Part shown: piece after piece, positions 4,140 through 8,671 of the stretch | How positions within the stretch are numbered: position 1 is the stretch's first letter | How the letters are laid out: the number at the start of each line of letters is the position of its first letter | From: Gammaproteobacteria bacterium | GTDB lineage: Bacteria; Pseudomonadota; Gammaproteobacteria; Xanthomonadales; Wenzhouxiangellaceae | DNA length: 64,000 nucleotides | Reading direction: 5' to 3' | Assembly: GCA_021772975.1 (NCBI GenBank) | Contig: JAJFKY010000022.1 | Coordinates: forward strand, 434,001-498,000 | Translations under genes and position numbers: made by a program | The notes under the pieces: generated by a model | Databases searched by the model: none | Told to the model about the DNA's origin: nothing | What the model saw: only the letters and a program-made list of their open reading frames with translations

Positions 4140-4610
4140 TCAGACGCCTGCGACCAGTTCGTCGATCAGACGCGCATGCGTGCCGGCGTCGATTTCCTTG
4201 CCCAGAATCTTTTCCGCGCCCTTGACGCTTAGCGAGACCACTTCGGAGCGCAGTTTTTCGCGCGCCTGGCTGGCGGCCTGCTGAATATCAGCTTCGGCGG
4301 CCCGCACCTGGCGCTGACGCTCACCGACGGCATCGTCCTTGGCTTCGGACACGATCTGATTGCCCCGCACGCCAGCCTGGTCGATGATTTCGGTGGCCTG
4401 ATCACGGGCTTGGCCGATCAATACTTCGGCCTGTTGTTTGGCTTCGTCGAGTGCTTTTTCAGCACGGTCGGACGCAGCCAGACCTTCAGCAATTTTCTTG
4501 CGACGTTCTTCCAGCGCTGAGGTCAGCGGTGGCCAGATGAACTTCATGCAGAACCACACGAAGACCATCATCGCAATGGATTGCAGGATAAGTGTGAGAT
4601 TAATGTTCAC
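4140..4610 (-). CDS. atpF: Fo ATP synthase subunit b
   Basis: Peripheral stalk subunit, 156 residues. One N-terminal membrane helix ([20 protein letters not shown]) is followed by a long charged coiled coil rich in Ala, Glu, Lys and Gln. The conserved [21 protein letters not shown] segment lies at the membrane exit. A good Shine-Dalgarno sequence (AGGAGG) lies just upstream of the start. It sits between atpE and atpH, as usual. Confidence 0.97.
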
Positions 4611-4663
4611 ACGGCCTCCTAGCTATGGGTTAGTTTAATAATGGATGCTGCCTGATGGGCTAC

Positions 4664-4954
<291 letters not shown>

Positions 4955-4981
4955 TCAAGATGATTAATGATTACGGTTACA

Positions 4982-5256
4982 GGAACCTCTGATTGAATTT
5001 GCCATGCTCGCGAGCGAGTCTTTTTTGGATGCAGGGCAGTGTCTTTGTCAACGCAGGCATAGCTTGATCTACGTCAAGTTGGCAAAGTGCTGCGATGCGC
5101 CAAAAAAGGCCGCTCCCCGCAGGGGTTACGCCCGAAATTCGACAATACTGCGTTGCACTGCTTGGCAATAGCCCGGCTATTACGCTGCGCAGCGACGCCT
5201 TGTCTTGTCGAATTTCCTGCTGTAACGCGATCATGTCAAATTCAATCAGAGGTTCC
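4982..5256. mobile_element. MITE-like element with perfect 20-bp terminal inverted repeats
   Basis: A 275-bp non-coding element bounded by GGAACCTCTGATTGAATTTG at 4982-5001 and its exact reverse complement at 5237-5256. Inside is a second, imperfect palindrome centred near 5175: a 12-bp perfect arm (5134-5145 and 5205-5216, GAAATTCGACAA) and a core aatagcc-c-ggctatt at 5167-5181. The element ends 6 nt downstream of the atpB stop and fills the atpB-atpE gap. No target-site duplication is obvious. Open frames crossing it are by-products of the palindrome. The ends look like those of an insertion sequence that could mobilise it in trans, but the family is not assigned. Confidence 0.85.
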
Positions 5257-5262
5257 AAAAAA

Positions 5263-6309
5263 TTAGTGATGCTCGTGCGCCATCGACAGATAGACCACCG
5301 TCAGCATCATAAAAATAAATGCCTGCAGCAGAATCACGATGATGTGAAACGCGGCCCAGCCAAAATGCATCAATTGTCCGCCGGCGAATGCCAGGCCACC
5401 CACCAGCAGCAGCTCAATCAACAGCAGCAGCAGGGTGCGCTTGGTTGACAGTATGTTTTTCAGGTTCAGCCACAAAGTAACCGCGACCGTCACCGCGGCG
5501 GCGATATAGAACCAGCTGGGGATATGGCCATCATGGAACAGCGACTGCAGTCCTTCGGCCATCCAACCAGAGCCCGCTGCGAACACCAGCGCGATCAGAA
5601 TAAAAATCAGTTCGCCGGCATACAGATTGCCGAATAGACGCAAACCGAGCGATACCGGCTTGGCCAGCAAGCCAACCACTTCCAGCAGGAAGTTAAATAT
5701 CATCAGCGGCGGCCAGAATAATTTGGGTAAGCCCATCTCTTTGGGGTTGATCGGGTTCATGGTCAGTTCCGCCATAAAACCGCCTACACCTTTAATCTTG
5801 AAGCTGTAGTAAATGATCATCACAAACACCGCGATGGCCATACCCATGGTGGCATTCACATCGGTGGTCGGGACAACTTTCTGGTACTCGATGCCCACGC
5901 TGTGCGCCACCCATGGCAGCCAGTCGACCGGAATCAGGTCCATCAGATTCATGAAGAAAATCCACACGAACAGTGTGAGCGCCAGAGGGGCGATATATTT
6001 GTTGGTGCCGCGGAAAACGTCTTTGACATTGTTATCCACCCATTCCACGATGCTTTCAATCGCATTCTGAAAGCCGCTGGGCGTATCGGTGGTGGCTTTT
6101 TTGGCCACACTGCGGAACATAAATAAAAATACCAGACCCAGCAGCAGTGACCAGAACATGGTATCCACATGCACCGCCCAGAAACCCATCGCGGCGGCTT
6201 CTTCGGCGCCATGCGCAAAGCCCCAATGGCCATCGGGATGTCTGCCATAGGTCAGATTCTGCAAATGATGCTGAATGTATTCCGAAGCTGTCTGTGCTTC
6301 ACCGCTCAT
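5263..6309 (-). CDS. atpB: Fo ATP synthase subunit a, with extra membrane segment
   Basis: Stator channel subunit that carries protons to and from the c ring. The essential arginine is in [15 protein letters not shown], and the last helix [21 protein letters not shown] is intact. At 348 residues it is clearly longer than the usual 260-290. The extra length is mainly between GELIFILIA and WAAFHII, where 77 residues stand in place of about 14 in the E. coli protein. This insert (DNA about 5360-5590) contains two hydrophobic stretches ([15 protein letters not shown] and [20 protein letters not shown]), probably an added hairpin. It follows atpI and precedes the MITE-like element. Confidence 0.96.
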
Positions 6310-6961: not shown

Positions 6962-8110
6962 TCAATATCCCGCCTCCCGGTCTACTGCATACCGCAACGC
7001 TCGGCCAGCCTGCATCCTGCGGTAGTTTTCAGCGATCACCGCCGCGGCTTCCAGAGGATCGGTCAGGCTGGCGGTGTGATGAGTCAACTTGATCTTGGGA
7101 TGCCGCGCGAGTGGATGCTCATCCGGCAGCGGCTCAGTTCGGGTAACATCCAGGCAGGCACCGCTCAACTGGCCTGAATCGAGCGCGTTCAGCAGATCAT
7201 CTTCAATCAGATGCGCCCCCCGCCCTACGTTAATCAGATAGCTGCCCGGCCTGCATTGCGCAAACAGTCCGGCATTCAGGATATCTCTGGTTTGTCTGGT
7301 CAGCGGCAGCAGGCAGATCAAAACATCCGCCAGGCTCAACATCCGGGCCAAACCCGATGCGCCGCTGAAGATCTGAACCTCGTCATGGTCTGCAGCACAG
7401 GGGCTTGTAACGTGGGTGTCTATACTTTTAATTTGCCTGACCAGTTGTGGGTGTCCTGACTTTTCCTCTACTGGTTTTTCCGTTGTGAATGTCTTGACTT
7501 TGCCTGCCAGCAAGTTATGGCTGTCCTGACTTTTTCCCATGCTTATGGCTCCCGGATTATGGGTGTCCATATTCTTTTTGTTTTGATCGTTGGAAAGTTG
7601 TGGATGTCCTGACTTTTCCTGCTGCAAAAAGTTATGGGTGTCCTGATTTTTATGGGTGTCCTGATTTTTTTTGCGGCGCCAGGCCATGACTTTGTAGCCT
7701 CTGGGGATAAACGCACTGGCCGCGGCCTGGGCGAGTTGACCGTAGCCCAGTAAGCCGATGCTGAGAGCATGCTTGGGCCGGGCTGCCTGGAGCGGGATAA
7801 CCTGCTCCAGCAGATAACCGGTCATGCTGGCCGCCAGCCTGGGACCGCTGACGCGGGCTATCTCTACTGTCGCCGGCAGTTGCGGATCATTCAGAATGTG
7901 CTCGACGCCTGCTCCGAAAGAATGTACCACCCGCAGATTGGACAATTCCGCCAGACAATCCGCCGGCTGCTGCCACAACACCGCTAATCTGATGGCAGCC
8001 GGATCAGCCAGCTCAGGCCAGATACTGACCGGGATATCCGGCGCAAGCTGCCGCAGCGCCCTCTGCAATGGCTGCGGGTCGCGGGTGGGCATGACGATCA
8101 GGATAGACAA
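6962..8110 (-). CDS. 2-hydroxyacid dehydrogenase (GhrA-like glyoxylate/hydroxypyruvate reductase) with repeat-derived insertion
   Basis: NAD(P)-dependent D-2-hydroxyacid dehydrogenase, closest to GhrA: the N-terminal LSILIVMPTRDPQ, the VHSFGAGVEHIL segment, the nucleotide fold IGLLGYGQLAQA, ADVLICLLPLT, the INVGRGAHLIEDDLL arginine, the RTEPLP glutamate and the HHTASLT histidine are all conserved. The family is about 310 residues; this protein has about 382. The extra 90 or so residues lie after KVMAWRR, in the loop following the second Rossmann strand, and come from a DNA repeat array (7410-7672). They are hydrophilic, Lys/Gln/His/Asp-rich and low in complexity. The start is uncertain: the TTG at 8110 has a GGAA upstream and matches the homologous N-terminus; GTG 8173 and ATG 8092 are alternatives. 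The reading frame is intact, so the enzyme may still work. Confidence 0.85.
   Translation of the reverse strand: MSILIVMPTRDPQPLQRALRQLAPDIPVSIWPELADPAAIRLAVLWQQPADCLAELSNLRVVHSFGAGVEHILNDPQLPATVEIARVSGPRLAASMTGYLLEQVIPLQAARPKHALSIGLLGYGQLAQAAASAFIPRGYKVMAWRRKKNQDTHKNQDTHNFLQQEKSGHPQLSNDQNKKNMDTHNPGAISMGKSQDSHNLLAGKVKTFTTEKPVEEKSGHPQLVRQIKSIDTHVTSPCAADHDEVQIFSGASGLARMLSLADVLICLLPLTRQTRDILNAGLFAQCRPGSYLINVGRGAHLIEDDLLNALDSGQLSGACLDVTRTEPLPDEHPLARHPKIKLTHHTASLTDPLEAAAVIAENYRRMQAGRALRYAVDREAGY
7410..7672. repeat. array of eight degenerate 21-24 bp repeats inside a coding sequence
   Basis: Plus-strand consensus TTATGGGTGTCCTGACTTTT. Units start near 7410, 7444, 7482, 7513, 7556, 7597, 7631 and 7651, with irregular 0-20 nt spacers. 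On the coding (minus) strand they encode KNQDTH, KNQDTHN, KSGHPQL, KNMDTHN, KSQDSHN, KVKTFTT, KSGHPQL and KSIDTHV, so all three frames of the repeat are used. The two units read as KSGHPQL both carry GTTGTGG instead of GTTATGG; with the A the frame would contain TAA. The whole array stays in frame with the dehydrogenase on both sides. Confidence 0.9.
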
Positions 8111-8257
8111 GCAGGTTCCGAGTTTTCGAGTTTCGCTGAGTTTAGCCGAATCCTGTTGTGCAGGTTGCCACACCCACGCATTTCAATAAGAACTGTAAGA
8201 GCCCCTCGGGGGCGACCATTCCATCCATAACACTGCAACCTTACCCCGGCAGCTGGT

Positions 8258-8273
8258 TCAAATCAGAGGTTCC
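8258..8273. repeat. orphan copy of the MITE end sequence
   Basis: The stretch TCAAATCAGAGGTTCC shares its last 13 bases (AATCAGAGGTTCC) with the right end of the element at 4982-5256. No matching opposite end is seen nearby. It may be the remnant of a second copy, or chance. It lies about 20 bp upstream of the his promoter. Confidence 0.4.
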
Positions 8274-8347: not shown

Positions 8348-8671
8348 ATGAAGCTTAATCACGAACAACATCAGGAAGCACAGCAGCAAGGTGCTAACAG
8401 CCTGGCTGCAGCGCTGCGCAGATTACCAGACAGCCATTCGGTATTGGCGCTGCTGGATGATCTGTGTACGCCGGCCGAGCTGGAAGCCATTGTCGACCGC
8501 TGGCGGGTAGCGCTGCTGCTGGATGAAGGACATCACTACCGTGAGATTCATGATCTGACCGGCGTCAGTGTGACCACCATCGGCCGCGTGGCGCGTTTCG
8601 TGCAACAGGGTACCGGCGGCTATCGTCAGGCTATGGATTGCCTGCCCGACAAACCCTCAGGAAATCGTTGA
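8348..8671 (+). CDS. TrpR-family regulator of the YerC/YecD (HisR-like) type
   Basis: A 107-residue all-helical DNA-binding protein. The region DDLCTPAELEAIVDRWRVAL, then the helix-turn-helix YREIHDLTGVSVTTIGRVAR and the terminal GTGGYRQAM, match the YerC/YecD branch of TrpR-related proteins. Members of this branch have been predicted to control histidine biosynthesis genes. Here the gene is the first of the his operon, its stop lies 2 nt before the hisG start, and a perfect palindrome sits in the promoter. Autoregulation together with his-gene repression is the likely role (inference). The effector is unknown. The Shine-Dalgarno sequence is weak. Confidence 0.85.
   Translation: MKLNHEQHQEAQQQGANSLAAALRRLPDSHSVLALLDDLCTPAELEAIVDRWRVALLLDEGHHYREIHDLTGVSVTTIGRVARFVQQGTGGYRQAMDCLPDKPSGNR

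Follow-up and report, generated by a model that had tools for sequence, protein, structure and literature searches.

A probable IS5-type MITE between atpB and atpE, and the recurrence of its inner hairpin in elements with unlike ends

Introduction

The window analysed here (the whole stretch of 64,000 nucleotides, from a genome of the family Wenzhouxiangellaceae) contains an ATP synthase operon in which a strongly palindromic sequence of 275 bp (positions 4982–5256) separates atpB from atpE. The ratio of the products of these two genes matters at this site, and the locus raises the question of whether the palindrome is an ancestral regulatory element of the operon, a mobile element inserted into it or an inserted element that was later recruited to set gene expression. 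A transposase needs to recognise only the ends of a MITE, which is why these elements are usually classified by them.

Structure of the element and its position in the atp operon

The outer 20 bp of the element, read directly from the sequence, form perfect terminal inverted repeats (TIRs; 4982–5001 on the plus strand and 5237–5256 on the minus strand), embedded in longer inverted arms of 31 nt (4982–5012 and 5226–5256; 94% complementary). The most frequent form of the TIR, on the basis of the family comparison below, is GGAACCTCTGATTTAATC; the atp copy has GGAACCTCTGATTGAATT on both sides. A preliminary description had placed such an element, with an imperfect inner hairpin of 83 bp, 6 nt beyond the atpB stop codon, and we confirmed the coordinates and arms of the element and the presence of this hairpin at 5134–5216 (arms of 15 nt, 93%). 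That description overlooked a second large hairpin, supported by folding and alignment (5012–5115, plus strand; hereafter referred to as arm A), and a mini-hairpin of 9 nt, CCCGCAGGG, lying between the two large hairpins (5116–5124). The module containing the inner hairpin (5132–5218, plus strand; hereafter referred to as arm B) was recovered in a genome scan with the covariance model R1 described below, with a score of 85.4 bits and an E-value of 4.4e-21, the atp copy itself being one of the 24 arms used to build the model. In the minimum-energy fold of the plus strand, the TIR stem closes on arm A, the mini-hairpin and a branch (5125–5226) containing arm B. The tip of arm A displays, by eye and on the minus strand, a CTTG-stem-loop-stem-CTGCG-like box, so that arms A and B may both belong to one type; model R1 gave no match to arm A in the own-family loci searched.

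The strong folding expected of the transcript was borne out by prediction. The folding energy of the plus strand was −148.8 kcal/mol, versus a shuffled mean of −87.6 (z −14.6), that of the minus strand, which is the atp sense strand, was −133.6 (z −9.4), and none of the 200 shuffled sequences folded as well as the element on either strand.

Both genes lie on the minus strand: atpB (ATP synthase subunit a; 5263–6309), with its stop codon at 5263–5265 and a product matching Pfam ATP-synt_A, and atpE (subunit c; 4664–4933), with a product matching ATP-synt_C. The spacer of 329 nt between them consists of six T residues in the sense orientation (5257–5262, minus strand), the element of 275 nt and the remaining 48 nt of the atpE leader (4934–4981, minus strand). 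This leader is intact after the insertion, including its ribosome-binding region (AACTGGAGTAAGC), which resembles that of relatives in the junction comparison. An ORF of 93 amino acids on the minus strand crosses the element and matched no Pfam family; another, of 102 amino acids, lies near the atp copy on the strand opposite to atpE. A simple scan of the atp sense strand of the element detected no terminator-like or promoter-like site. One terminator-like site was found within the element on the other strand (5006–5019), and the two such sites found in the region, versus 1.1 expected, were not above chance. A search of positions 4600–5600 against Rfam gave no match up to an E-value of 1.

A repeat family and an empty site in the sister genome

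The preliminary description had called the element MITE-like and had proposed a search for further copies, the lack of which would count against that term. The blastn search of the genome itself (3.74 Mb in 24 contigs; E-value 1e-3) returned 49 matches, partial and inverted ones included, corresponding to 23 copies of 98 to 316 bp with both ends defined and four more partial copies. The sister genome, the sole genome of the same genus searched, gave 10 matches, corresponding to eight bounded copies and one partial copy. No match was found in 58 of the other 59 relatives, the remaining one (G004) having weak internal matches only. A TIR pattern with up to three mismatches matched the genome 46 + 42 times, versus 1 + 1 times for a reversed control pattern. 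With one mismatch allowed across the 61 genomes, the pattern gave 30 + 28 matches in the genome itself, 13 + 11 in its sister and seven single matches in four others. Two of the sister copies (L078 and L068) were letter-for-letter identical to L147 and L172, on contigs of the MAG OFTM154. No match to the element was found in plasmid or in phage records.

The same description had proposed a check for an empty site in a close relative, and conservation of the sequence at the same site in distant relatives would have suggested an ancestral element. Sequences matching atpB were found in 47 of the 61 genomes, and the junctions were compared in the best 11 of these 47 (the genome itself, its sister and nine further relatives). 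The element was present at the junction in its own genome only, and the atpB–atpE spacer of the sister is 51 nt long, with neither element nor scar, indicating that the element was inserted at this site and is not ancestral. The very strong fold, at a place where product ratios matter, is what would be expected of an ancestral regulatory RNA kept for the atpB/atpE ratio. Its absence from the junctions of the sister and nine other relatives among the best 11 of 47, and the occurrence of 30 further copies of the family elsewhere in the two genomes, make this explanation hardly credible.

The 31 bounded copies of the two genomes have features of a transposed family. None lies wholly within an ORF of at least 90 amino acids, and nine are partly overlapped by ORFs of 92–146 amino acids, which were taken for spurious. 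Relative to the neighbouring genes, 17 copies were codirectional, seven convergent and seven divergent, on the basis of crude gene calls, with the atp copy set by hand. The 4-mers flanking the copies on the left and right agreed at 82% of positions and were identical in 15 of the 31 copies, versus an agreement of no more than 41% at 12 other shifts. The flanks corresponded to YTAR in 15 (left) and 16 (right) of the 31 copies and to YWWR in 25 on each side; a YTAR target duplication is typical for IS5. The atp copy itself is flanked by TACA and AAAA, with no target duplication, and the copy nearest to it is 82% identical only, so recent movement is not seen. Passages in PMC10969869 describe target duplications as fading with age.

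Several copies bear traces of rearrangement. Arm B is inverted inside the otherwise normal elements L019 and L078, i.e. the hairpin has been flipped in place. Two fused TIRs alone, forming an exact or imperfect palindrome of about 27 bp, were found at four places in the genome and four in the sister, two of these eight places having an exact 4-bp duplication; in these remnants the interior has been lost. Towards the inside, the TIRs (GATTTAATC and GATTAAATC) form a near-direct repeat of 9 bp, so slipped replication across the hairpin could leave a scar of this kind.

Within the window, a lone TIR with two mismatches, followed outward by TTAG, lies at 8256–8273 (minus strand), upstream of a small ORF (8348–8671), and is probably half a MITE with its other end gone. 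In L027 (about 1502–1900), the left end of a MITE continues into AAAGCATAGACACCC repeats, about 1.5 kb from a contig end, and another mobile element has possibly been inserted in this MITE. The motif GACACCC, which recurs beside a MITE end in L027, also belongs to a region of the window (7443–7672) with six diverged copies of a 25-nt repeat; the region lies inside a minus-strand ORF (6962–8173) that looks like a putative 2-hydroxyacid dehydrogenase, and in its translation the motifs DTH and SGHPQL recur.

Insertion sequences with the same ends

The 18-base TIR was found in at least 104 stretches of genome contigs, some of the single matches being possibly due to chance. The matches listed included two complete insertion sequences, one in an Arenicella MAG (L137, 3792–4927; 1136 bp) and the other in a Clostridiales MAG (L161, 4501–5723; 1223 bp), encoding transposases of 312 and 327 amino acids with scores of 336 and 322 bits, respectively, both above the cut-off of 140 for the IS5 family (NF033581). 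In each, one end matched the TIR exactly; the other matched it over the outer 10 bp only in L137 (five mismatches in 18) and had three mismatches in 18 in L161. Also among the matches listed were MITEs of about 160 bp in Sedimenticola MAGs, with the same ends as the family described here.

Insertion sequences with the same ends, for which the preliminary description had proposed a search, thus exist in these two MAGs and were not found in the genome itself or its sister. The transposase family PF01609 had no match in these two genomes or in G004, versus nine of 14 control genomes positive, and a protein search of four genomes with the L137 transposase, run with no positive control, found nothing. 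This negative result is based on one Pfam family and one protein in draft assemblies of 24 and about 60 contigs, and draft assemblies can lose insertion sequences.

Nine contigs of Caproicibacter fermentans (L162, L165, L176, L181, L188, L189, L196, L198 and L204) were among the matches listed, with the TIR about 100–120 bp from where the available sequence stops. Such a pattern would be expected of an assembly interrupted by a multi-copy insertion sequence with these ends. In several other MAGs (L155, L166, L185, L194 and L214), a 27-bp palindrome, GGAACCTCTGATTWAATCAGAGGTTCC, ends a different element of 150–165 bp, the other end of which is GGAAGCTCTGAATAA.

The element is less than 500 bp long, with perfect TIRs of 20 bp, 23 bounded copies in the genome, no transposase gene and an empty site in the sister. 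The term MITE-like is upheld by the genomic copies, the TIRs, the apparent 4-bp duplication of the family, the empty sister site and the occurrence, in other bacteria, of complete insertion sequences that share these ends. We consider the atp element to be an old copy of a non-autonomous MITE of the IS5 type that apparently no longer moves, with a probability of about 0.85. The points that weigh against this reading are the lack of a target duplication at the atp copy, the failure to find a transposase for the family in the genome or its sister, the imperfect second ends of both insertion sequences, the low identity of the nearest other copy and the ORFs that partly overlap nine of the copies. 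An IS5-type transposase acting in trans, and since lost, would have moved the element into the atp operon after the species split.

The hairpin within elements with unlike ends

Arm B was aligned from 15 copies of the family, five Sedimenticola copies and four copies from G004. The inner boxes, CTGCG and CGCCTTG, are invariant or nearly so and the outer stems are quite different, with a covariation of 0.41, versus 0.14 for shuffled and no more than 0.18 for slid structures. The covariance model R1 was built from these 24 arms, and the genome itself is counted in each survey; the E-values are rough, with no decoy control. Matches were obtained in 46 of 101 genomes (16 of 43 genera) among the relatives at an E-value of 1e-3, in 72 of 274 genomes (59 of 222 genera) across the class at 1e-4 and in 56 of 398 genomes (30 of 213 genera) across the phylum; 32 of these last 56 are from outside the class, a single family accounting for 31 of the 32.

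In 73 loci chosen because they matched R1 or had been used to build it, the matches formed 22 clusters at 80% identity. The outer 8 bp of these clusters are Watson-Crick paired in 171 of 176 cells, versus 61 on average and 80 at most for shuffled partners, and the 22 outer 8-mers are all different. Neighbouring arms less than 60 bp apart are head to head in 29 of 30 cases, and the arm is often found elsewhere in elements of about 150–350 bp, commonly as a head-to-head pair.

The ends of the elements surrounding the hairpin differ between lineages. In G016, the eight places read comprise seven elements of 285–292 aligned bases (98–99% alike) and one interrupted, and the ends are TATTAACCCGGCACG; in G022, the elements are about 271 bp long, with ends CTAGTGGTCCTTCAACC and nine paired copies. 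Loose clustering of 23 hand-picked TIRs gave eight types. IS5-like ends are common to several genera (the family described here, L269, L310 and L321), and many other hairpin elements have CTAG/TA flanks, reminiscent of IS630-type targets. No complete insertion sequence for CTAG-type ends was identified in G022, where two unpaired ends look like a truncated copy and a chimera, and the G022 element had no match in plasmid records. An element of this genome (L331, 2523–2680) has CTAGTGGTCC at one end and CCGGGTTAATA at the other and seems to be a chimera of two end types.

These features bear on the possibility that it is the arms themselves that move, in the manner of REP sequences mobilised by a RAYT transposase, with the TIRs secondary. 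The existence of single-arm elements with arm B (L310, L321, L269 and Sedimenticola), the occurrence of this arm with unlike ends and its inversion in L019 and L078 are consistent with such mobility. A scripted check of 45 loci, the family described here included, found no enclosing inverted repeat in 11, which likewise fits such mobility; one was found in the other 34, or plausibly in 30 of 45 once those of L319, L278, L260 and L273 had been discounted, and in four of seven loci outside the class. These enclosing repeats argue against the arms as mobile unit, as does the apparent 4-bp duplication of the family described here directly outside the TIRs, a sign that the TIRs are the substrate of a DDE transposase. 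Mobility of the arms in their own right is thus quite improbable.

We tentatively propose, as a reading with clearly less than even chances, that MITEs of Pseudomonadota widely share the inner hairpin as a DNA module of conserved structure that has no name so far, consisting of paired hairpins of about 85 nt and serving as a portable transposition helper or host-factor site. It would be a head-to-head pair with fixed loop boxes and freely varying stems, able to function with two or more unlike kinds of transposon end (IS5-like and CTAG/TA-flanked). It might act in the form of a cruciform or of a hairpin in single-stranded DNA, and would have been exchanged between the ends of different transposons. 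In the reading preferred here for the atp element itself, the arms would act at the DNA level: in single-stranded or supercoiled DNA they would form hairpins or cruciforms, and this folding would draw together the two ends of so short an element.

No description of the hairpin core was found in the literature searched or in Rfam; most subscription papers and ISfinder lay outside the scope of this search, and the core may therefore have been described. A search of five loci against Rfam gave a single match, below the gathering score and outside the element of L158. Of three TIR strings sought in paper texts, only the shortest occurs, in 18 papers, none of them on mobile elements as judged by title.

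Conservation of the hairpin at the RNA or DNA level

The strong covariation could also reflect selection of the family as a folded RNA (a small RNA or a stabiliser of mRNA), with one strand working. In favour of this possibility, the strand on which arm A comes first folds better than the other in 28 of the 31 copies; in the atp copy, this better-folding strand is antisense to atp, which argues against it, as does the lack of a match in Rfam.

Selection for an RNA structure can be examined through the mutations at paired sites, by comparing G-U with A-C. In 22 full-length copies (two duplicates, seven short copies and the two with a flipped arm B being omitted), there were 16 G-U versus 19 A-C private mutations (P = 0.74), and 32 versus 24 when all variants were considered (P = 0.35). 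The consensus contains seven G-T pairs. The 22 arms less than 80% alike gave 62 G-U versus 49 A-C (P = 0.25). Over 114 arm places, mutual copies included, the count of 305 G-U versus 189 A-C would favour RNA selection; it was set aside, being dominated by copies of one another. The private mutations and the diverged arms suggest that the strand difference was inherited from the founder copy, and RNA selection, as proposed from this difference, was rejected because it failed both tests. In the diverged arms, there was an excess of A-C over G-U at the outermost 12 positions (21 versus 2) and 10 positions (16 versus 2), which was read as a conserved C-A mismatch of the stem, since the counts at the first eight positions were 2 versus 2.

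The mutation patterns, judged from sequence comparison, thus give no clear sign of RNA selection. We regard selection of the family as a folded RNA as decidedly unlikely, and a DNA-level role of the arms in mobility is therefore preferred, albeit unproven.

Possible consequences for the atp operon

The preliminary description had suggested that the fold could stabilise the atpE end, block readthrough or alter subunit ratios. One possibility is that the element was recruited after insertion to set atpB and atpE levels, through RNase III cleavage or protection of the atpE message. Its perfect 20-bp stem is compatible with such a function, and the bases of the atpE start region are predicted to be unpaired with a mean probability of 0.54 when the element is present, versus 0.42 without it. 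The papers found on atpB–atpE concern chloroplasts or mycobacteria, as judged by title. Passages in two papers (PMC10969869, PMC2649163) describe transcribed MITEs as acted on by RNase III, including the Correia elements of Neisseria, which are bound or cut. However, a neutral spacer accounts for the same facts and a single genome represents the species, so recruitment appears unlikely, if less so than selection as a folded RNA. Most probably, the element adds 275 nt of transcribed spacer to the operon and is tolerated there. By analogy with the transcribed elements cited, our best guess is that the atp message may be processed by RNase III: the long stem would be a substrate, and cleavage would part the atpB and atpE messages, leaving the atpE leader untouched.

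Significance and comparison with known systems

The finding in the atp operon is a MITE insertion, ordinary in kind. What is noteworthy is that part of the interior keeps its structure in many genera, unlike the ends, which vary; should this conservation reflect selection, short mobile elements would have a further working part that has gone unrecognised. The operon also provides a natural experiment, since the atpB–atpE spacer contains a fold of 275 nt in one member of the sister pair and lacks it in the other.

The closest likeness, judged on the ends only, is to the IS5 family (NF033581), with which the element shares the outer ends GGAACCTCTG and the family, apparently, a 4-bp target duplication, often YTAR or YWWR. 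Unlike IS5 insertion sequences, the element has no transposase; its interior consists of a core of two hairpins, and one of these arms is also found in elements with unlike ends.

By description, the family may also be likened to the Correia (NEMIS) elements of Neisseria, which are short, bounded by inverted repeats, provided with a conserved core and, according to the passages already cited (PMC10969869, PMC2649163), bound or cut by RNase III when transcribed. In contrast to these elements, the family appears to have a 4-bp target duplication and the element lacks a promoter-like site within it. The exact IHF consensus was found in none of 33 element rows, two of which were duplicates.

Long hairpins are described for other MITEs, in passages on Thiomargarita (PMC4853749) and on the QMITEs of Coxiella (PMC5896051). 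QMITE1 and QMITE2 resemble the element by description, as palindromic MITEs with very stable predicted folds, and relatives of QMITE2 are reported there in other bacteria (PMC5896051). Finally, REP, BIME and REPIN sequences (PMC2817692) are short intergenic hairpins that are conserved and alternate in orientation, whereas the arm described here is about 85 nt long, with fixed inner boxes and varying stems, and often lies within long TIRs.
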